48,857 nucleotides of DNA from Bacillota bacterium (GTDB lineage Bacteria; Sysuimicrobiota; Sysuimicrobiia; Sysuimicrobiales; Segetimicrobiaceae). The position numbers and the translations under genes are program-made. This document shows positions 1 through 9,010 of this stretch, one piece after another; position 1 is the stretch's first letter; every line of letters begins with the position of its first letter. Below the pieces are notes generated by a model. That model saw nothing but the letters and a program-made list of their open reading frames with translations. It did not search any database and was not told the origin of the DNA. Location: the NCBI GenBank assembly GCA_021324255.1, contig JAJPJL010000030.1, positions 1 through 48,857 of the forward strand. The letters are read 5' to 3'.

Positions 1-169
1 GCGCGCTGAGACACACCAGGGCCGGCCGGATCATCTTCCCGTGGCTCCGCAGCACGTGCGCGACGAGATCGCCGATGAAGGGGTCGTCGCTCACGAGCTC
101 CGCGCGCAGGAGGCCGTCGAGCGCTTCGAGGTCCTGCTGCACGGGCGAGTAGATGCGCGTGAGGTCCAT
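1..169 (-). CDS. Polyprenyl diphosphate synthase, 5' end only
   Basis: The first 56 codons of a gene that runs off the left edge of the window. The translation starts MDLTRIYSPVQQDLEALDGL and later carries GKMIRPALVCLSA, which matches the GK-x-x-RP block near the N-terminus of trans-isoprenyl diphosphate synthases (hepta/octaprenyl type). These enzymes make the side chain of menaquinone or the lipid carrier. The DDxxD motifs lie outside the window. The ATG is the only good start; the Shine-Dalgarno is weak. It follows the quinol-oxidising operon in the same direction, which fits a quinone role. The 174 bases between it and the 45-residue gene hold no clear terminator. Confidence 0.75.
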   Translation of the reverse strand, partial: MDLTRIYSPVQQDLEALDGLLRAELVSDDPFIGDLVAHVLRSHGKMIRPALVCLSA

Positions 170-343
170 CGGGTGGTGTGTTCTCGTCACCGGCCGCGTT
201 TCCCTCGGCTGCGCCGCGCCCGGACCGCCGTCTCGGGCTCGCGGCCGCCGCGCGCCGTGAGGGCGCGGCACCGCGCCGCGGCCGTCCACGCCGCACGCGA
301 ACGCCCCGGCGGGCGCAAACGACCCTTGGTCCCCGGACCGCGG

Positions 344-481
344 TTAGACGTCGGCGACGGTACCGTAGAACGAGATGAAAAAGAGCAGCCCGAACAGGAG
401 GACCCAGAACGCGAGGTATCGCCAGTACACGATGGCGGCCGTCGGCTCCGCCGGGGTGCCGGGTGCTCTGCGTTCGGCCAT
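344..481 (-). CDS. Single-span membrane peptide of the redox operon (45 aa)
   Basis: A 45-residue protein with a short polar N-terminus and one hydrophobic segment of about 24 residues (about 17-40, including YWRYLAFWVLLFGLLFFISF). The ATG shares one base with the TGA stop of the MvhD-like gene (TGATG), so translation is probably coupled. No family is recognised. Position, size and topology resemble small accessory subunits of respiratory complexes; that role is inference. It is the last member of the redox operon before the polyprenyl synthase. Confidence 0.6.
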   Translation of the reverse strand: MAERRAPGTPAEPTAAIVYWRYLAFWVLLFGLLFFISFYGTVADV

Positions 482-1029
482 CACGTTCCCTCCCGTCCAG
501 CGGGCGCGCCGGCCTGGCCGTCCTGGGCCGCGGGCCCCGTGCGTGGCGCCGCGGAGGCCGGGCCCGCGGCCGCGGGCGCCGGCTTCCGCGGCGGGAACGC
601 GGGACCGGGCATACCCGCCACGCGGTCGCTGAACGCCCGGACCGCATCCACGAACGCCGCCCCCGCGTGCTTGCCGTAGAACAACGCGCCGATGCGCTCG
701 GGATTGACCTTTTGCCGCTCGAGGCGCCGCCGGAGCTGCTCCACGCGATCGCCGATCAGGTTGTTGCCGTAGCGGTTGAAGCAGTCGCCGAGCGGGCACC
801 CGCAGACAAACACCCCGTCGGCCCCGTTGCGCAGCGCAAACTCGAGCCACGCCGGCCGCGTAAAGCCGGAGCACGGGATCTTGATCAGCGTCACGTTCGG
901 CAGATCGCGCATCGTCCCGTCGTCGCGGACCAACCCCTGGGACGCGACCGCCCAATCGCAGAGAAAGCCGACGATCTTGGGGCCGCGGCGGCCCGCCGCC
1001 GATGGCGGACGATCGGCTAGCTCTGGCAT
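481..1029 (-). CDS. MvhD/FlpD-like iron-sulfur protein
   Basis: 182 residues related to the delta subunit of methyl-viologen-reducing hydrogenase (MvhD), a small [2Fe-2S] protein that passes electrons between a dehydrogenase and heterodisulfide-reductase-like partners. Visible family marks are VGFLCDW (Cys24), IPCSG (Cys53) and VCGCPLGDC (Cys76, 78, 83), spaced as in the family. One Cys of the usual N-terminal CC-x-W-C cluster is absent. The C-terminal 40 residues are Ala/Pro-rich. The ATG start lies 13 bases inside the ferredoxin-fused cytochrome b gene. No hydrogenase, formate dehydrogenase or Hdr subunit is present, so the usual partners are missing and the adjacent ferredoxin domain is the likely one (inference). 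Confidence 0.75.
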   Translation of the reverse strand: MPELADRPPSAAGRRGPKIVGFLCDWAVASQGLVRDDGTMRDLPNVTLIKIPCSGFTRPAWLEFALRNGADGVFVCGCPLGDCFNRYGNNLIGDRVEQLRRRLERQKVNPERIGALFYGKHAGAAFVDAVRAFSDRVAGMPGPAFPPRKPAPAAAGPASAAPRTGPAAQDGQAGAPAGREGT

Positions 1030-2174
1030 GCGCTCAGCACCTTCTCGTGGATGTCTTTTTGGAGCAGCCGCGGCAGCTCCAGCGCCTCGAACGGGCACGC
1101 GCCGACGCAGATGCCGCACTCCACGCACCGGGATTCCAGGATCACCGCCCGCAGCTTGCGCGCCTGCGCCGCCTTCGTCACACCGGGATTGGGGCTCGGC
1201 ACCATGACGATCGCGTTGTACGGGCAATCATAATAGCACAACTCGCAGCCGGTGCAGTTCGCGTCGATGACCTGCGCCACGCCCGAGTCCTTGAGGCCGA
1301 GCTCGCTCCGCGTCTCGGGCAACTGGTAGGGAATGTACAGGCCGTAGCCGATGAGGACCACGGCCAGCGCGATCAACACGAGCGGCGGCAGGAACCGCAT
1401 CGCCCAGTACGGCGTGAGGAACAGCCAGTCGATGGCCAGCGTCTGCGGGCGCTGCGAGACGACGGCCGGCGCCTGGCTGGTCACGGGGATGAGTCCCGTC
1501 AGCAGGACCACGAACCCGAGCGCGAACAGCGTCCACACGGCGGGCGGCCACACCTTGGGGTGGCGGATCCGCGTGTAGTGCCACCACAGAAACACGTAGA
1601 GGCCGACGGCGGGACCGATGTGCAGGAACAGGAGACGCGGCAGGAGCAGATCGGTCAGGCCGGTGCCGCCGAACAGCGCGTGGCGCAGCCACCCGCCGAC
1701 CAGCGGGACCTGGGCGGCGGCGTTGGCCGTCATCGCCACGAGGGCCTCGCTCCGCTGGTCCCACACCAGCATGTACCCCGTGACCCCGATGAAGCCCGTG
1801 AGCGTGAGCAGCATCATCCCGCTGATCCACGGCTCGTCCCGGGAGAACCGGAAGCGCTCCGTGAACCAGTTGCGAAAGAGATGCAGCAGCACCACGATCA
1901 TGAACCCGTCGGCGGAGTACCGGTGGATGCCCCGGATGATCTGCCCGTAGGGCACGTCGAGCGTGAGAAACTGGACGGACGTGTACGCCTGGTCGAACGA
2001 CGGCGTGTAATAAAGGAAGAGGAAGATGCCGGACAGGACCAGGACGGTGAGAAAGAGGTTCGCCAGGCCGCCGGTGTAATACAGCGGGTTGAAGTCGTCC
2101 GGGTACACCCGCGCGACGAGGGTGTCCACCCGCAGCGTCGCGGCCAGCAACCCGGCCAGCAGCCGCTTATACAC
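1017..2174 (-). CDS. Cytochrome b fused to a 2x[4Fe-4S] ferredoxin
   Basis: 385 residues. Residues 1-290 are a cytochrome b/b6-type membrane domain with both haem pairs intact: His84/His98 (HX13H) in helix B and His185/His199 (HX13H) in helix D. The Qo-loop region reads AIDWLFLTPYWAMRFLPP, so the usual PEWY is IDWL. Residues 300-385 are a bacterial ferredoxin with CTGCELCYYDCP (Cys307, 310, 313, 317) and CVECGICVGACP (Cys350, 353, 356, 360), two [4Fe-4S] sites expected on the cytoplasmic side. The start is GTG, 8 bases inside the preceding gene, with GGGAGG eight bases upstream. The fusion implies direct transfer between membrane haem and ferredoxin. It overlaps the MvhD-like gene. Confidence 0.88.
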   Translation of the reverse strand: MYKRLLAGLLAATLRVDTLVARVYPDDFNPLYYTGGLANLFLTVLVLSGIFLFLYYTPSFDQAYTSVQFLTLDVPYGQIIRGIHRYSADGFMIVVLLHLFRNWFTERFRFSRDEPWISGMMLLTLTGFIGVTGYMLVWDQRSEALVAMTANAAAQVPLVGGWLRHALFGGTGLTDLLLPRLLFLHIGPAVGLYVFLWWHYTRIRHPKVWPPAVWTLFALGFVVLLTGLIPVTSQAPAVVSQRPQTLAIDWLFLTPYWAMRFLPPLVLIALAVVLIGYGLYIPYQLPETRSELGLKDSGVAQVIDANCTGCELCYYDCPYNAIVMVPSPNPGVTKAAQARKLRAVILESRCVECGICVGACPFEALELPRLLQKDIHEKVLSACQS

Positions 2175-2361
2175 TCGTGAACCCTCCCTTGCGCAGGCAC
2201 AGCAGGATGAACGAGTACGCCAACAGGATCACGCCGATGAGCGCCCCGCCCAGGCGATGATGGCCCGTCAGTTCGCCCCAGACGATCCCGGCGGTGCAGA
2301 CGAGGCTCACCGCGGCCAGCACCACGATCCAGAGGACGTACGCGGACGCCCGGTCCGTCAT
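2167..2361 (-). CDS. Two-span membrane protein of the redox operon (64 aa)
   Basis: 64 residues with two hydrophobic segments (about 8-28 and 38-56) joined by WGELTGHHRLGG. A strong Shine-Dalgarno (GGGAGGT, four bases before ATG) supports it as a gene, and its end overlaps the GTG start of the ferredoxin-fused cytochrome b by 8 bases. No family is recognised. The two adjacent histidines in the loop are the only possible metal or haem ligands. Likely a small subunit of the complex (inference). Confidence 0.65.
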   Translation of the reverse strand: MTDRASAYVLWIVVLAAVSLVCTAGIVWGELTGHHRLGGALIGVILLAYSFILLCLRKGGFTSV

Positions 2362-2363
2362 CG

Positions 2364-2672
2364 CTACCTCCCGCTCCGCCCCGCCGGCGGTGTCAGGGGC
2401 CACGCTTGCCGTCCGGCCGGCCCGCCGCGCCGCGCGAGCAGCCACTCGTAGAGCGCCACCTTGCGGCGCACCTGGCCGGCGGCACGGTCGACCTCGTAGA
2501 GCAAGAACCCCAGCCACACCATCGCGAAGACGAGGGCGGCGCCGAGCACCACCGCCTCCGCCGCCGCGTCCAGGCTCCCGGATGCGCGCCACGCGCGCCA
2601 CGCCGCCAGGAATCGGCTCAGGCCGAGCGTCGCCGCCGCGAGCAGCGCGCAGAACAACGCGTTCCGGCGCAT
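2364..2672 (-). CDS. Two-span membrane protein of the redox operon (102 aa)
   Basis: 102 residues with a hydrophobic N-terminus (about 5-25), a second span around residues 40-60 (VVLGAALVFAMVWLGFLLYEV) and a basic, Pro-rich tail. It lies between the two cytochrome b genes in the same orientation, two bases before the 64-residue gene. No family is recognised. Codon use is as GC-rich as the neighbours, and the tail is low-complexity, so the exact end of the conserved part is unclear. Probable accessory subunit or assembly factor of the complex (inference). Confidence 0.55.
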   Translation of the reverse strand: MRRNALFCALLAAATLGLSRFLAAWRAWRASGSLDAAAEAVVLGAALVFAMVWLGFLLYEVDRAAGQVRRKVALYEWLLARRGGPAGRQAWPLTPPAGRSGR

Positions 2673-2754: not shown

Positions 2755-3918
2755 CTACGACGCCGCGGGCCGAGGCGCCGGCCGCGACGCCCCCGCGGGC
2801 GCCGGGGCGGAGGCCGCGCCGCGCCGCGCCTGCCGCCGCCGGTACGCGAGCTCCCAGAGAAAGGCGGCAAACAGCACGACCACCGTGATGCCCCAGATGT
2901 ACGGCGGGTCGCGCGAGATGACGGCGATGTTCAGCATGATGAGCGCGCTAAACCCGATCCAGTAGATGACCGCGAGCAGGCCCACCACGAAGAAGAACGG
3001 CCGCCGCGTCGGCAGCGTCTCCTTGGTACGGTCGAGAAAGGGCACCAGCATCCCGTACCCGATGAGCAGCGCCGGGGCGACCCCCGCCCACAGCGGCGGC
3101 ATGTACTTCACCACCTGGTAGAGGGCGAGGAAATACCAGTCGGAGAGGACCGGCAGCGGCGTGCGGTTGTTGTTGGCCCACTGGCCCAAGTCCGGCAGGT
3201 TGATGAAACTCACGAACGCCAGAAAGACGAGCACGAGCACGATGGCAAACGCGGAGACGTTCAGGCGCCGCCGGCGCGTGCGGTAGAAGAACGTTTCGGC
3301 CACGATGGCCAGGACGATCGAGATCCCGAAGTGGATGGAGTAGAAGCGGGTGAGCGTCCCCTGGCCGAGCGCCGGCCCGCCGAGGAAGATGTAGGCGATG
3401 GCGTGGCCCAGCCCCAGGTTGCCGATCAACGGGATGTCGTCGTAGTAGGTCGGCACCGTGAGGATCACCTTGGCCGCCCAGAACGCGCGCTGGTTCCACT
3501 CCAGGGTGTACCCCGTCACGCCGGAGATCATGGCGAGCACCAGCGAGGCAAAGAGGATCATCCACGTGAGCTCACCCGGCTTCTTGTACTCCCCGGCAAA
3601 GTACATGCGGTAGATCCGGAGCGTGATGCACGTGATGAGCATGTCCCCGCCGTACTTGTGAAGCCCGCGCACGACCCACCCGAAGGGGATGTCGTACGTG
3701 ATGTGCTCGATCGAGCGGTACGCCCCGGTCGTCGTCGGGATGTACCAGAGCATGAGCACGATCCCCGAGACGATGACGATCATCCAGGACAGCCAGACGA
3801 GGCCGCCCAGGATGTACAACGGATTGTCCTGGCGCGCCGTCTGCGTCTCGTCCCAGAGGTCCAGGCGCTGCTTGCGGTCCTGGAACCACTCCCTGAGGTT
3901 TGCGAGCACCGCCTCCAC
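2755..3918 (-). CDS. Cytochrome b lacking the haem bH ligands
   Basis: 387 residues with cytochrome b helices and a C-terminal subunit-IV-like part. In helix B the first histidine is present (RGLHKYGGD, His87) but the residue 14 places on is Arg101 (ITLRIYRMYF). In helix D His196 is present (YSIHFG) but the residue 14 places on is Phe210. In classical cytochrome b the first His of each helix binds haem bL and the second binds bH, so the bL pair is kept and the bH pair is lost. I checked this against the codons (CGG and TTC). The Qo motif PEWY reads SDWY (259-262). It follows the Rieske gene. A Rieske/cytochrome b partnership is expected, with a modified low-potential chain. Confidence 0.88.
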   Translation of the reverse strand: MEAVLANLREWFQDRKQRLDLWDETQTARQDNPLYILGGLVWLSWMIVIVSGIVLMLWYIPTTTGAYRSIEHITYDIPFGWVVRGLHKYGGDMLITCITLRIYRMYFAGEYKKPGELTWMILFASLVLAMISGVTGYTLEWNQRAFWAAKVILTVPTYYDDIPLIGNLGLGHAIAYIFLGGPALGQGTLTRFYSIHFGISIVLAIVAETFFYRTRRRRLNVSAFAIVLVLVFLAFVSFINLPDLGQWANNNRTPLPVLSDWYFLALYQVVKYMPPLWAGVAPALLIGYGMLVPFLDRTKETLPTRRPFFFVVGLLAVIYWIGFSALIMLNIAVISRDPPYIWGITVVVLFAAFLWELAYRRRQARRGAASAPAPAGASRPAPRPAAS

Positions 3919-3977: not shown

Positions 3978-4652
3978 TCACGCCTCCCGCGGCGACGCGG
4001 CGCCGCCGGGCGCGCACTGCGCGATCGCGCCGACCTCGGCGCCGGTGACGACGATGTCGTCGCCGTGGATCTCGAACCGGAAGTACCGTGCGCCCCGGGG
4101 CGCGGGTCCCGAGATGACGTTCCCGGGATTGTCCGGGTACTCTGGGTCATAGATGCTGAAGTGGCACGGGCACGCCATGAGCGCATGCTGCTCGAACCCC
4201 GGCGGCCGGAACCCGCCGTAGCCCGCCGATACTTCATGCCAGTCGGACACGTAGTTGTAAATGCAGCCCAGGTGCGGGCAGATCCGGGAGAACAGCACGA
4301 TGTCGGTCTCCCCGTCGAAGCCCACGTACCCCTCGCTGTTCACGAACCTCACCTTCTTGGGCAGGCGGATCGCCACGCCCGGGACATTGCTCGCTTCCTG
4401 CCCCTCCGGCGTGTACTGGACGAACCGCTGCACGTACGTGAAATAAAACGAGTCCCACGGCTTGGCCAGCTGGGATACCTTGCCCACGACCTGGGCGCCG
4501 CCCTGCGGGAGGTCGGGGGTGATCGTGAAGATGCCCCACGGCTTGTCGTTCGGCTTGAGAAAGCGGAAGAACGGCGACAGCACGGCGATGAGCGCCCCCA
4601 CCACGGGGATCGCCGTCAGCGCCTTGAGCACGCCGCGCCGGTCGAGCTTCAT
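3978..4652 (-). CDS. Rieske [2Fe-2S] protein
   Basis: 224 residues. The N-terminus has a Tat-like/uncleaved anchor (DRRGVLKAL followed by a hydrophobic stretch to about residue 32). The Rieske boxes are CPHLGC (Cys125, His127, Cys130) and CPCHFS (Cys161, Cys163, His164), giving two Cys and two His cluster ligands plus the disulfide pair Cys130/Cys163. It takes the high-potential electron from quinol at the Qo site and hands it to cytochrome c. A good Shine-Dalgarno (GGGAGG) precedes the ATG. It sits between the dihaem cytochrome and the cytochrome b, the expected order for a quinol:cytochrome c oxidoreductase. Confidence 0.93.
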   Translation of the reverse strand: MKLDRRGVLKALTAIPVVGALIAVLSPFFRFLKPNDKPWGIFTITPDLPQGGAQVVGKVSQLAKPWDSFYFTYVQRFVQYTPEGQEASNVPGVAIRLPKKVRFVNSEGYVGFDGETDIVLFSRICPHLGCIYNYVSDWHEVSAGYGGFRPPGFEQHALMACPCHFSIYDPEYPDNPGNVISGPAPRGARYFRFEIHGDDIVVTGAEVGAIAQCAPGGAASPREA

Positions 4653-4683: not shown

Positions 4684-5556
4684 CTACTTGATCGGCGGGT
4701 GTTTGTAGAAGAACGTGTAGATATAGTCCACGACGTCGTTCAGCTGCTCGGCGCTCATCTTGCCGCGAAAACTCGGCATCGGCCCGCCGCCGTCGAGGAT
4801 CGCATTGGTCAGGTCCGCCCCGTTGCGTTGCACCATGTAGTTGATGTCGGTGAAGATGCCGGGCCCCTTCCCGTGCGACCACGACCAGAGCTGCGCCGCC
4901 ATCTCGGGGCCGCGCGGCCCCTTGCCATCGCCGTTCGTGCCGTGGCACTGCGCGCACTGCGCCTCGTAGATGCGCTTCCCCTCGCTCAGCGCCTGCGGCG
5001 TCGTGCGGAACATCATCTCGTAGACGTTCGCGTCCCAGCGGTCCTGGTTGGAGAGCGTCTGGGCTTTGTTGGCGCCGAACGACGCTTCGGGCCCGAACGC
5101 CGGCATCGCCGTGTATGCGCGTCCGTTGGTCACCGTCTGGTACATGATCGCCGGGGTGATGACGCTCTCCAGGTCGCGGTTGTGAAAATCCGCGGGCTTG
5201 CTCGGCACCGTCGGCCGGTGAACGGTGATGCCGAACAATCCCGTGACCAGCGCCAGTACGTCGTGCTGGGGCTCCACGAGCGTCGGCGCCATCGGACCGT
5301 TGCCCCGGCCGTCCGTCCCGTGGCACACCGCGCAGTTTGCGTCGAACACCTGCTTCCCGTGCACGGCGTCGGGGACGATCGGCCGGTCGTTCTCGTCCGC
5401 GACGAGCGGGGTCTCGACTTCCTCCGTCGGCGGGAGCGCGAGATCGAGCCCGGGCCCCCGCAGGCTCGTCTGCGGCTGGCACCCGGCGGCCAGGACGGCC
5501 GCAGCGATCACCAGCAACATTGCGGCCGAACGCGTCCGGCCGGACCCTGTCGGCAT
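4684..5556 (-). CDS. Dihaem cytochrome c lipoprotein
   Basis: 290 residues from the ATG that follows AAAGGA. A lipoprotein signal peptide ends in LAAGC (Cys26), so the protein should be anchored outside the cytoplasmic membrane. Two c-type haem sites are seen: CAVCH (75-79) and CAQCH (201-205). MPAF (Met151) and MPSF (Met260) are likely axial methionines, one per domain. The reading frame stays open upstream, but that part is arginine-rich and crosses the terminator hairpin. It is the first gene of the redox operon and the likely electron acceptor of the Rieske protein. Its haems need the ccm genes upstream. Confidence 0.9.
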   Translation of the reverse strand: MPTGSGRTRSAAMLLVIAAAVLAAGCQPQTSLRGPGLDLALPPTEEVETPLVADENDRPIVPDAVHGKQVFDANCAVCHGTDGRGNGPMAPTLVEPQHDVLALVTGLFGITVHRPTVPSKPADFHNRDLESVITPAIMYQTVTNGRAYTAMPAFGPEASFGANKAQTLSNQDRWDANVYEMMFRTTPQALSEGKRIYEAQCAQCHGTNGDGKGPRGPEMAAQLWSWSHGKGPGIFTDINYMVQRNGADLTNAILDGGGPMPSFRGKMSAEQLNDVVDYIYTFFYKHPPIK

Positions 5557-6726: not shown

Positions 6727-7028
6727 CTCGCGCCCTCCGGTCCCGCGGCGGCGTCGCGCTCGAAGATCGCCAGCGCGTCGAGGCGGCGCAACACCGCGAC
6801 CGCCTCGGCCTGATAGCCGGCGCGCAGCGCCGCGTAGTCGCCGTCGGCGAGCTTGCCGGTTTCGTGGTCGAGATCGAGGTCTCTCAGCGCGCGGTATGCC
6901 GCCTCGCGCGCCGCGAGCAACCGCTGCCGCTCCGCGTCCGGCGCCGGCGCCGGCACGGGACGCCACAGCGGCCAGAGGACAAACACCGCGGCCGCGCACG
7001 CGAGGACGACGAGGCCGGCCTCGGCCAT
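6723..7028 (-). CDS. CcmI-like small membrane protein
   Basis: 101 residues. One N-terminal span (AGLVVLACAAAVFVLWPLW) is followed by a charged helical part (ERQRLLAAREAAYRALRDLD) typical of the short CcmI/CcmH-linked proteins found after ccmF. It lacks the RCxxC motif of CcmH, so it is not the apocytochrome thiol reductase. Its ATG shares a base with the ccmF stop. A role in holding the maturation complex or apocytochrome is inferred from position only. Confidence 0.6.
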   Translation of the reverse strand: MAEAGLVVLACAAAVFVLWPLWRPVPAPAPDAERQRLLAAREAAYRALRDLDLDHETGKLADGDYAALRAGYQAEAVAVLRRLDALAIFERDAAAGPEGAS

Positions 7029-9010
7029 CACTCCCCGGCGCTCCAGGCGCCGCGAAACGCCGGCGCCGCGCGGGGCATGAGGCGGCGCTCCGGGATCATC
7101 GCGATCACCGCGCCGAGCGTGAGCACCGCGCCGCCTGCCCACATCCACGAGACGAGCGGGTTCACGAGCAACCGCAGGGTGGCGCGGCCGCTCGGCGTCC
7201 ACCCCGCGAGCGTCACGTAGAGGTCGTCGCGCGGCGTGCTCCGCAGCGCGACGTCGGTCGTGACGTCGCCCGTGAGATAGAGGTTGCGCCGGGCGGCGGC
7301 GGGCCCGAGATCGCGGGCGCCCTCGAACACGCGCAGCGCCGCGGTGATCGCGAGCGCGCCGCCGCGCGCCGACTGCGACAACCCGTCGAAGCGCACGCGG
7401 TACCGCTGGATCGCCGCGGCCTCGCCGGGCGCCAGCGTGACGACCCGCTGCGAGGCGAACACCGACGAGCCCGTGATCCCGCAGAACAGCAGCAGGATGC
7501 CGAGGTGCACGATGTATCCGCCGTAGCGCCGGCGGTTGTGCGCGACGAGCGCCAGGAGCGCGCGCAGCGGGGACTCGCCGCGGTGCGCGCGCCGCACGCG
7601 CACCCCGCCGGCAAACTCCATGGCGACGGTCGCGGCGACGAACGCGCACAGCGCAAAGGCGAGCAGCGGCCCGGGCGCGCGCATGCCGGCCGCGAGCAGC
7701 GCCAATCCCACCACCACCGCGGCCGCGGCGGGCGCCTGCAGGCTGCGGCGCAGGCCGCCGGGGGAGGCCCGCCGCCACGCGACCGCGGGGCCGATCCCCA
7801 TGAGCAGCAGGATGCCGAACGCGAACGGCACGACGATATGGTCGAAGAACGGCGGCCCGACGTTGATCGCGCGGCCGGCCACCGCCGCCGACACGATGGG
7901 AAACACCGTCCCCAAAAACACCGAGAACGCCACCGCGAGAAACAGCACGTTGTTCAACACAAAGGCGCTCTCCCGCGACACCGCCGCGTCGAGCTCGTGG
8001 CGGCCGCGCAGCTCGTCCCACCGCCATGCGGCGAGGGCAAACGCCGCGACGAGGGCGAGCGCCAGGAAGCCGAGGAAGAACGCGCCGAGCGACGACTCCG
8101 TGAACGAGTGAATGCTGCTCAGCACGCCGCTCCGCGTCAGGAACGTCCCGAAGACGGCCAGCCCGAAGGCGAGAATCACGAGGACGACGTTCCACCGCGC
8201 CAGCATCTGGCGCCGTTCCTGGATCATGACGGAGTGGAGAAACGCGGTGGCCACGAGCCAGGGCATGAGCGCGGCGTTTTCCACCGGGTCCCAGGCCCAG
8301 TACCCGCCCCACCCCAGCACCACGTACGACCACTTGGCGCCGAACATGAGCCCCATGGTGAGGCAGTACCACGCCCACAGCATCCAGCGCCGGGCGAGAA
8401 GCACGCCGCCGCCGTCCACGGATCCCGCGGCGAGGCTCGCCGTCACGATCGCAAAGGGGACCGTCATCCCCACGAACCCGAGGTACAGCGTCGGCGGATG
8501 AATCGCCATCCAGGGGTTCAACAGCAGCGGGTTCATCCCGCGGCCGTCGGCGGGCGGGAACGGCGACGTGGCAAACGGCGAGGTGACGAACGCGAGCATG
8601 AAAAGAAAGAACGCCGAGATCCCGCCGAACACGGTCGTGAGCGCGGGCACGAGCGGCGGCCTCGTCCGCCCGATGCTCCGCAGCGCCGCGAGTGTGTACG
8701 CGGACAGGATGAGCGCCCACAGCAGCAGCGAGCCCTCCATCCCGCCCCAGAACGACGTCAGATCGTAGATGAGCGGCTGGGCGTCGCGAACGTGCGACAC
8801 CACGTATCGAAACGAATAGTCGCGCCCGGCCAGCGCCGCCCACAACACCGCCGCGGCGACGGCCTCCAGCAACGCGACGGCGACGAGCCCGTGGACGGCG
8901 CTGCGCGCCAGCTCGGGCCGGCGGGTGCGGGCGCCGAGGATGGACGCCGCCATCGCGTACAGCGCGAGCACCAACGCGGCGAGGAGCGCAAACCGTCCGA
9001 GATCAGCCAC
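7028..9010 (-). CDS. ccmF: CcmF cytochrome c haem lyase subunit
   Basis: 660 residues, a normal CcmF length, with about 15 hydrophobic segments. The N-terminal signature SFWGGMEGSLLLW is at 87-99 and the tryptophan-rich WWD haem-handling motif WGGYWAWDPVENAA at 234-247. It ligates haem from CcmE to exported CXXCH apocytochromes. The start is GTG with AGGGA upstream. It sits in the order ccmC-ccmD-ccmE-ccmF and serves the dihaem cytochrome encoded in the next operon. Confidence 0.93.
   Translation of the reverse strand: MADLGRFALLAALVLALYAMAASILGARTRRPELARSAVHGLVAVALLEAVAAAVLWAALAGRDYSFRYVVSHVRDAQPLIYDLTSFWGGMEGSLLLWALILSAYTLAALRSIGRTRPPLVPALTTVFGGISAFFLFMLAFVTSPFATSPFPPADGRGMNPLLLNPWMAIHPPTLYLGFVGMTVPFAIVTASLAAGSVDGGGVLLARRWMLWAWYCLTMGLMFGAKWSYVVLGWGGYWAWDPVENAALMPWLVATAFLHSVMIQERRQMLARWNVVLVILAFGLAVFGTFLTRSGVLSSIHSFTESSLGAFFLGFLALALVAAFALAAWRWDELRGRHELDAAVSRESAFVLNNVLFLAVAFSVFLGTVFPIVSAAVAGRAINVGPPFFDHIVVPFAFGILLLMGIGPAVAWRRASPGGLRRSLQAPAAAAVVVGLALLAAGMRAPGPLLAFALCAFVAATVAMEFAGGVRVRRAHRGESPLRALLALVAHNRRRYGGYIVHLGILLLFCGITGSSVFASQRVVTLAPGEAAAIQRYRVRFDGLSQSARGGALAITAALRVFEGARDLGPAAARRNLYLTGDVTTDVALRSTPRDDLYVTLAGWTPSGRATLRLLVNPLVSWMWAGGAVLTLGAVIAMIPERRLMPRAAPAFRGAWSAGE

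Follow-up and report, generated by a model that had tools for sequence, protein, structure and literature searches.

A cytochrome b without haem bH ligands is encoded beside a ferredoxin-fused cytochrome b in a Rieske operon of CSP1-3 (Sysuimicrobiota)

Results

Organisation of the operon

The window, by which we mean the whole stretch of 48,857 nucleotides analysed here (contig JAJPJL010000030.1), contains an operon with the gene order cytochrome c, Rieske protein, first cytochrome b (cytb1), two small membrane proteins, second cytochrome b with a ferredoxin domain (cytb2-Fd) and FlpD. All of these genes are located on the minus strand, to which the window positions below refer. The window's genome belongs to the phylum CSP1-3 (Sysuimicrobiota). 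In every family sampled from this phylum the gene order recurred, with losses mostly at contig ends, and it was the same in the genome G151 from a second phylum.

The dihaem cytochrome c (4684..5556, start chosen by eye) bears two CxxCH motifs, which were present in all 36 operon cytochromes c, and is probably a lipoprotein, as a lipobox recognised by eye suggests. The Rieske [2Fe-2S] subunit (3978..4652) carries the motifs CPHLGC and CPCHFSIYD, and both cluster motifs were intact in 37 of the 37 Rieske genes found in CSP1-3. The potential-raising residues were present as well, the serine in 37/37 and the tyrosine in 36/37 genes; both residues have been tied to a high potential (PMC12954380). 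The two small membrane proteins (2364..2672 and 2167..2361) are conserved operon members, the former without a family match and the latter without one over the cut-off. Their genes were recovered by similarity between both cytochromes b in most CSP1-3 loci (32 and 36 matches). The gene cytb2-Fd (1017..2174) starts within 600 bases downstream of cytb1, three genes downstream, and is followed directly by the gene for an FlpD/MvhD protein (481..1029, start chosen by eye). Pfam showed FlpD and Fer4 in the window's operon, and no NAD(P) oxidoreductase or flavoprotein.

Haem ligands and Qo motif of the first cytochrome b

The gene cytb1 (2755..3918) encodes a b6/subunit IV-like cytochrome b of 387 amino acids with approximately eight helices, counted by eye. 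A plus-strand frame over the same positions was rejected as a GC-rich antisense frame. Pfam assigned the domains Cytochrome_B (3e-33) and Cytochrom_B_C (4e-6), and the nearest solved structures were cytochrome b6 and, for the C-terminal part, subunit IV. A Foldseek search with the cytb1 model retrieved cytochromes b with E-values down to 5.4e-10, the model itself being weak (mean pLDDT 65). The protein has the cytochrome b fold and the Pfam domains of canonical bc1 and b6f complexes; it does not have the four haem-ligand histidines which their Qo-motif-bearing cytochrome b possesses.

A preliminary description of this DNA had reported that only one pair of haem ligands is left in the protein, with His87 and His196 in place and arginine and phenylalanine 14 residues further on. 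The minus-strand sequence reads exactly so: His87 (codon 3658..3660) and His196 (3331..3333), the two ligands of haem bL, are followed by Arg101 (3616..3618) and Phe210 (3289..3291) at the bH-ligand positions of helices B and D. The four positions were read in the sequence, in the family alignment and in a profile alignment to the solved cytochrome b6 (PDB 1q90_B), which placed Arg101 on b6 His100, Phe210 on b6 His202, and His87 and His196 on the remaining two b6 histidines. We take the former b6 pair to be the ligands of the n-side haem bH and the latter those of the p-side haem bL, and with this assignment the lost histidines are the bH pair, as had been proposed.

At the position of the canonical PEWY motif, the family alignment showed SDWY (3133..3144), invariant in 36/36 cytb1 rows and likewise noted at the outset. 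Glu208 (3295..3297) was invariant in CSP1-3 and in G151, and was missing from two other genomes of the second phylum, G386 and G387. It is a possible salt-bridge partner of Arg101; the AlphaFold single-chain models were weak (pLDDT 65 and 58) and too poor for a measurement of this contact.

Conservation and distribution of the ligand loss

The family alignment of cytb1 comprised 40 rows including that of the window, of which 38 had letters at each diagnostic column. His87, Arg101 and His196 were each found in 38/38 of these rows, all from CSP1-3, and position 210 was never a histidine (20 phenylalanines, 11 tyrosines, 5 leucines, one tryptophan and one methionine). The same loss of the bH ligands occurred in three genomes of the second phylum (G151, G386 and G387), each with arginine at position 101. 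Fixed across CSP1-3 and extending into another phylum, the loss is concerted and not random, in agreement with the preliminary description. No conserved histidine besides His87 and His196 was present in the alignment, so that no replacement histidine ligand is visible in cytb1. The ratio dN/dS amounted to 0.087 and 0.084 in the two closest pairs and to 0.152 and 0.254 in two wider pairs; the value of about 0.09 in the closest pairs argues that the loss of bH is not the result of decay. When 56 cytochromes b were compared, all 13 members of the cytb1 family were without the bH pair, and all four histidines were present in the 43 others (13 cytb2, 12 fusion proteins described below and 18 canonical cytochromes b).

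Within the order, cytb1 was detected in 38 of 43 genomes (E <= 1e-60). Of the five genomes without a match at this threshold, G042 has a fragment where its contig ends, and the others are the four sampled members of genus g9 in family f6 (G016, G029, G035 and G037), none of which contained cytb1 or cytb2 at the thresholds used.

Among 385 outgroup genomes, 57 had a cytochrome b match at 1e-35, and the histidines of the best match per genome were read for 26 of these 57. Both histidine pairs were present in 23 of them, two were of the bL-only type (G386 and G387), and in the remaining case (L174) the first pair was seen and the second was cut off by the match boundary. The candidate G243 (4.5e-57) turned out to be a canonical cytochrome b. 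Restriction of the bL-only cytb1 to a single phylum was ruled out by G151, the first genome outside CSP1-3 found to contain cytb1, and subsequently at a looser threshold by G386 and G387, which belong to the phylum of G151 and had escaped the thresholds 1e-60 and 1e-50.

The operons of G386 and G387 consist of cytochrome c, cytb1, cytb2-Fd and FlpD, without the Rieske protein and the small membrane proteins. A Rieske protein was also not detected elsewhere in the two genomes (completeness 92% and 82%), neither with query A4 (0/2) nor with PF00355 (0/2). The Qo-motif position reads ADWY in both. The Rieske-less operon versions in two genomes of this phylum (L177:891-5122 and L178:2-5538) encode an FlpD with a very acidic N-terminus. 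In G151, the operon follows genes of a cbb3-type oxidase (L120:4080-6671, COX1 and FixO fused to cytochrome c), which is a high-potential sink beside the operon.

The partner subunit and FlpD

The second cytochrome b of the window retains the four haem ligands, has lost PEWY in favour of DWL, and is fused to two [4Fe-4S] motifs. His84, His98, His185 and His199 were invariant in 35 cytb2 rows. The PEWY position was occupied by DWL, DWF or D-x-x, with the tyrosine absent. Seven of the eight ferredoxin cysteines were invariant and one was conserved in at least 90%. Shortly behind the second bH ligand, Arg204 was invariant and His205 was conserved in at least 90%. Quinone-site residues sit at this place in known proteins, so cytb2 may have retained a quinone site.

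The FlpD/MvhD domain (Pfam 8.4e-24) has four invariant cysteines which probably hold a [2Fe-2S] cluster; cysteines 31, 85 and 90 were found in 36/36 sequences and cysteine 60 in 35/36, with an X in the remaining one. In the draft genome of the window (142 contigs), no HdrA partner of FlpD was found over the cut-off, the operon's own FlpD and ferredoxin being the only matches above 30 bits and the others weak domain matches. Two more cytochromes b are encoded in this genome, both of the ordinary cytochrome-c-fused type with four histidines.

Phylogeny of the two cytochromes b

Fusion proteins were found at 12 loci of 11 genomes (L136-L147); each unites in one chain a cytochrome b that has four histidines with two [4Fe-4S] motifs and an FlpD domain. 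Neither a Rieske protein nor cytb1 was present near the 12 loci within the stretches examined. The neighbours of the fusion gene at L138 are COX1, COX2 and SCO1, and similar frames were recognised by eye at other fusion loci. The fusion family may provide electron entry from the cytosol to an oxidase or to quinone.

In trees based on 181 columns, cytb1 formed one clade (support 98 in the first tree, 100 in the second with 15/15 sampled rows) that grouped with canonical cytochromes b (100 in both). Relatives with all four histidines were not found in this bL-only clade among the 15 sampled rows. The cytb2 sequences formed another clade (support 92 in the first tree, 93 in the second with 15 rows), which was affiliated with the fusions (100). 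The cytochrome b domains of cytb2 and the fusions were monophyletic with support 100, the long-branch row L146 aside, which by eye fell outside this group in the first tree and was dropped from the second. These affiliations rule out a recent duplication as the origin of cytb1 and cytb2. Each of the two clades spans two phyla. The pair is thus old; its members stem from separate ancient lineages that were brought together and have stayed so in both phyla.

Discussion

The cofactor losses of the two cytochromes b appear complementary: cytb1 would bind haem bL next to a Qo-type motif and lack haem bH, and cytb2 would bind both haems with a degenerate Qo motif. Between them, the two subunits would have a single Qo motif, a bL site each and a bH site in cytb2 only. 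The preliminary description, which named no partner gene, had suggested that the electron of the bL-only subunit probably passes to a partner. The operon itself offers a candidate for this partner, the four-histidine cytb2 with its dicluster ferredoxin domain; the association of both subunits, the transfer and its direction are putative. The cofactor sites of each subunit, the operon and the signature of selection are all read in sequences, from which we infer that cytb1 and cytb2 form a heterodimer, as well as the path and direction of the electrons and their final acceptor. It is likely that cytb1 works as one half of a Rieske/cytochrome b complex.

The explanation we favour, at an even chance, is an asymmetric complex of this kind in which unlike cytochromes b split the work and bifurcation exports low-potential electrons to the cytosol. 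The Qo site of cytb1 would oxidise quinol and send one electron via the Rieske cluster to the dihaem cytochrome c (high-potential branch) and the other one to haem bL of cytb1. Since cytb1 is devoid of haem bH, the normal intrasubunit path would be closed to the latter electron; it would cross to haem bL' of cytb2, move on to bH' and leave through the two [4Fe-4S] clusters and the [2Fe-2S] centre of FlpD towards a cytosolic acceptor. Quinone-based bifurcation would in this way yield a low-potential cytosolic reductant. With the ferredoxin domain placed after the last helices of cytb2 and FlpD next in the operon, a wire into the cytosol would be the plain reading of the domain order. The serine and tyrosine of the Rieske protein and the cbb3-type oxidase beside the G151 operon favour an outward flow of high-potential and an inward flow of low-potential electrons. 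The stricter version has somewhat less than an even chance in our judgement: an obligately asymmetric, natural complex III, cross-inactivated to Qo in one half and bH in the other, in which all low-potential electrons have to take the route over the bL-bL bridge, the Fe-S clusters and FlpD, so that quinol yields low-potential cytosolic reductant and a Q cycle is minor or absent.

The same components could also work in the opposite direction. FlpD and the ferredoxin domain would then feed haem bH of cytb2, where quinone would be reduced at a Qi-type site, and the Rieske side would run an asymmetric Q cycle in which cytb1 provides the Qo half and cytb2 the Qi half. A comparable ferredoxin-plastoquinone route has been proposed for b6f. 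The four haem ligands of cytb2 and its conserved Arg204 and His205 agree with such an input, as does the position of cytb2 inside the wider fusion clade, whose members have no Rieske protein nearby and, at L138, stand beside oxidase genes and could receive their electrons from the cytosol. However, cytosolic input leaves the loss of bH in cytb1 unexplained, as a normal homodimer would do, and the window's genome holds two other four-histidine cytochromes b for an ordinary Q cycle. Alternatively, both cytochromes b could contribute their haems, together with cytochrome c, to a transmembrane electron wire between the periplasm and FlpD in the cytosol that needs no bifurcation and in which the Rieske protein is optional. 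The pair without a detectable Rieske protein in G386 and G387, where everything else except the small membrane proteins is kept, is what this arrangement would look like, and it counts against bifurcation as a universal role. Then again, the intact cluster motifs of all CSP1-3 Rieske genes are at odds with a dispensable Rieske protein, and the retention of ADWY or SDWY even in G386 and G387 points to a quinol site. Weighing the Rieske-less genomes, the fusion relatives, the missing HdrA and the quinone site that may persist on cytb2, all of which speak against export, we leave bifurcating export at its even chance, regard cytosolic input as less likely, and consider the wire improbable.

Two further explanations concern cytb1 itself. 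A second n-side haem might be held by other ligands, for instance as a five-coordinate or a Glu/Lys-ligated haem. The invariant Glu208 (36/36), one turn before position 210, could serve this purpose, and glutamate can ligate haem cN (PMC12954380). Nevertheless, Glu208 is missing in G386 and G387, further conserved histidines do not exist, and the guanidinium group of Arg101, present in the 38 rows and the three genomes of the second phylum, would make haem binding in the pocket implausible; we judge this explanation very improbable. A decaying or mis-assembled gene, in favour of which nothing was found, is ruled out for practical purposes by the 38/38 conserved rows, the low dN/dS of the closest pairs and the conserved operon.

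The window's operon shares the Rieske protein, the cytochrome b fold, the c-type cytochrome and, in SDWY, a putative Qo-type motif with bc1 and b6f complexes. In contrast to these, one of its cytochromes b is without both bH ligands, and it encodes two dissimilar cytochromes b together with cytosol-facing redox modules, a ferredoxin domain and FlpD. The anammox Rieske/cytochrome b complexes of Kuenenia stuttgartiensis with an NAD(P) oxidoreductase (Kustd1480-1485 and Kuste4569-4574) follow the same proposed principle, with a high-potential Rieske protein and the low-potential electron leaving via Fe-S clusters to the cytosol; their modelled b haems occupy the positions expected from b6f complexes, haem cN is present, an interface haem is proposed and electrons exit through an FAD/NAD(P) protein (PMC12954380). 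In the operon described here, by contrast, bH is missing in the Qo subunit, and the wire would run through the other cytochrome b and end at FlpD as the exit. How quinone reduction on the n-side is prevented is presented in that study as the larger, open problem (PMC12954380), and removal of bH from the Qo subunit could be an answer to it.

Another parallel is found in Rhodobacter bc1 mutants. When one half lacked Qo and the other the bH ligand H212, catalysis proceeded via bL-bL transfer, fast enough for turnover (PMC4330944). With Qo in one half and bH in the other, as we propose for the window's operon, the bL-bL bridge becomes the sole path. The layout of these cross-inactivated mutants appears to be natural here. 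The bc1 variants were engineered by point mutations in one fused cytochrome b, whereas the present proteins come from two naturally occurring genes that parted long ago, and their proposed exit to the cytosol is new. The cytochrome b-2[4Fe-4S]-FlpD fusions have the domain order of cytb2-Fd plus FlpD and share its clade; they differ from the operon as one fused protein without cytb1, without a Rieske protein within the stretches examined and with oxidase-type neighbours. The FlpD/MvhD domain is also common to the Mvh/Hdr-type bifurcation module, whose HdrA component the search of the window's genome did not detect.

A physiological role for bL-bL transfer, and the capacity of quinone-based bifurcation to feed soluble low-potential carriers, have been argued mainly from mutants and models. 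If the asymmetric complex is real, a natural enzyme with the usual path removed in one subunit and a cytosolic wire built into the other would make both questions directly testable. It would also show how autotrophic members of a phylum about which little is known could gain low-potential electrons while sparing the proton gradient the cost of reverse electron flow, a share of the respiratory energy being sent to the cell interior. The open-access PMC literature, to which the search was confined, yielded neither a report of a cytochrome b lacking its bH ligands nor one of a cytb1/cytb2 operon, and this is weak evidence of novelty. The main text of the paper on CSP1-3/Sysuimicrobiota mentions neither cytochrome b nor complex III, Rieske proteins or menaquinone (PMC11604079).

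Several genes surround the operon. Upstream lies a gene for the haem lyase CcmF (7028-9010, minus strand), which is located near the operon in many relatives too and fits the need for cytochrome c maturation. Following FlpD, a frame of 45 amino acids with a single helix (344-480, minus strand) has a similar counterpart in one close relative only. The contig starts inside a frame (1-180, minus strand) that resembles a polyprenyl diphosphate synthase by eye, the fragment having no Pfam match. Genes downstream of the CSP1-3 operon were typed in L039 and L047 only, and in both a full polyprenyl synthase gene is present near FlpD (PF00348, 1e-68 and 1.1e-67), which possibly links the operon to quinone synthesis.
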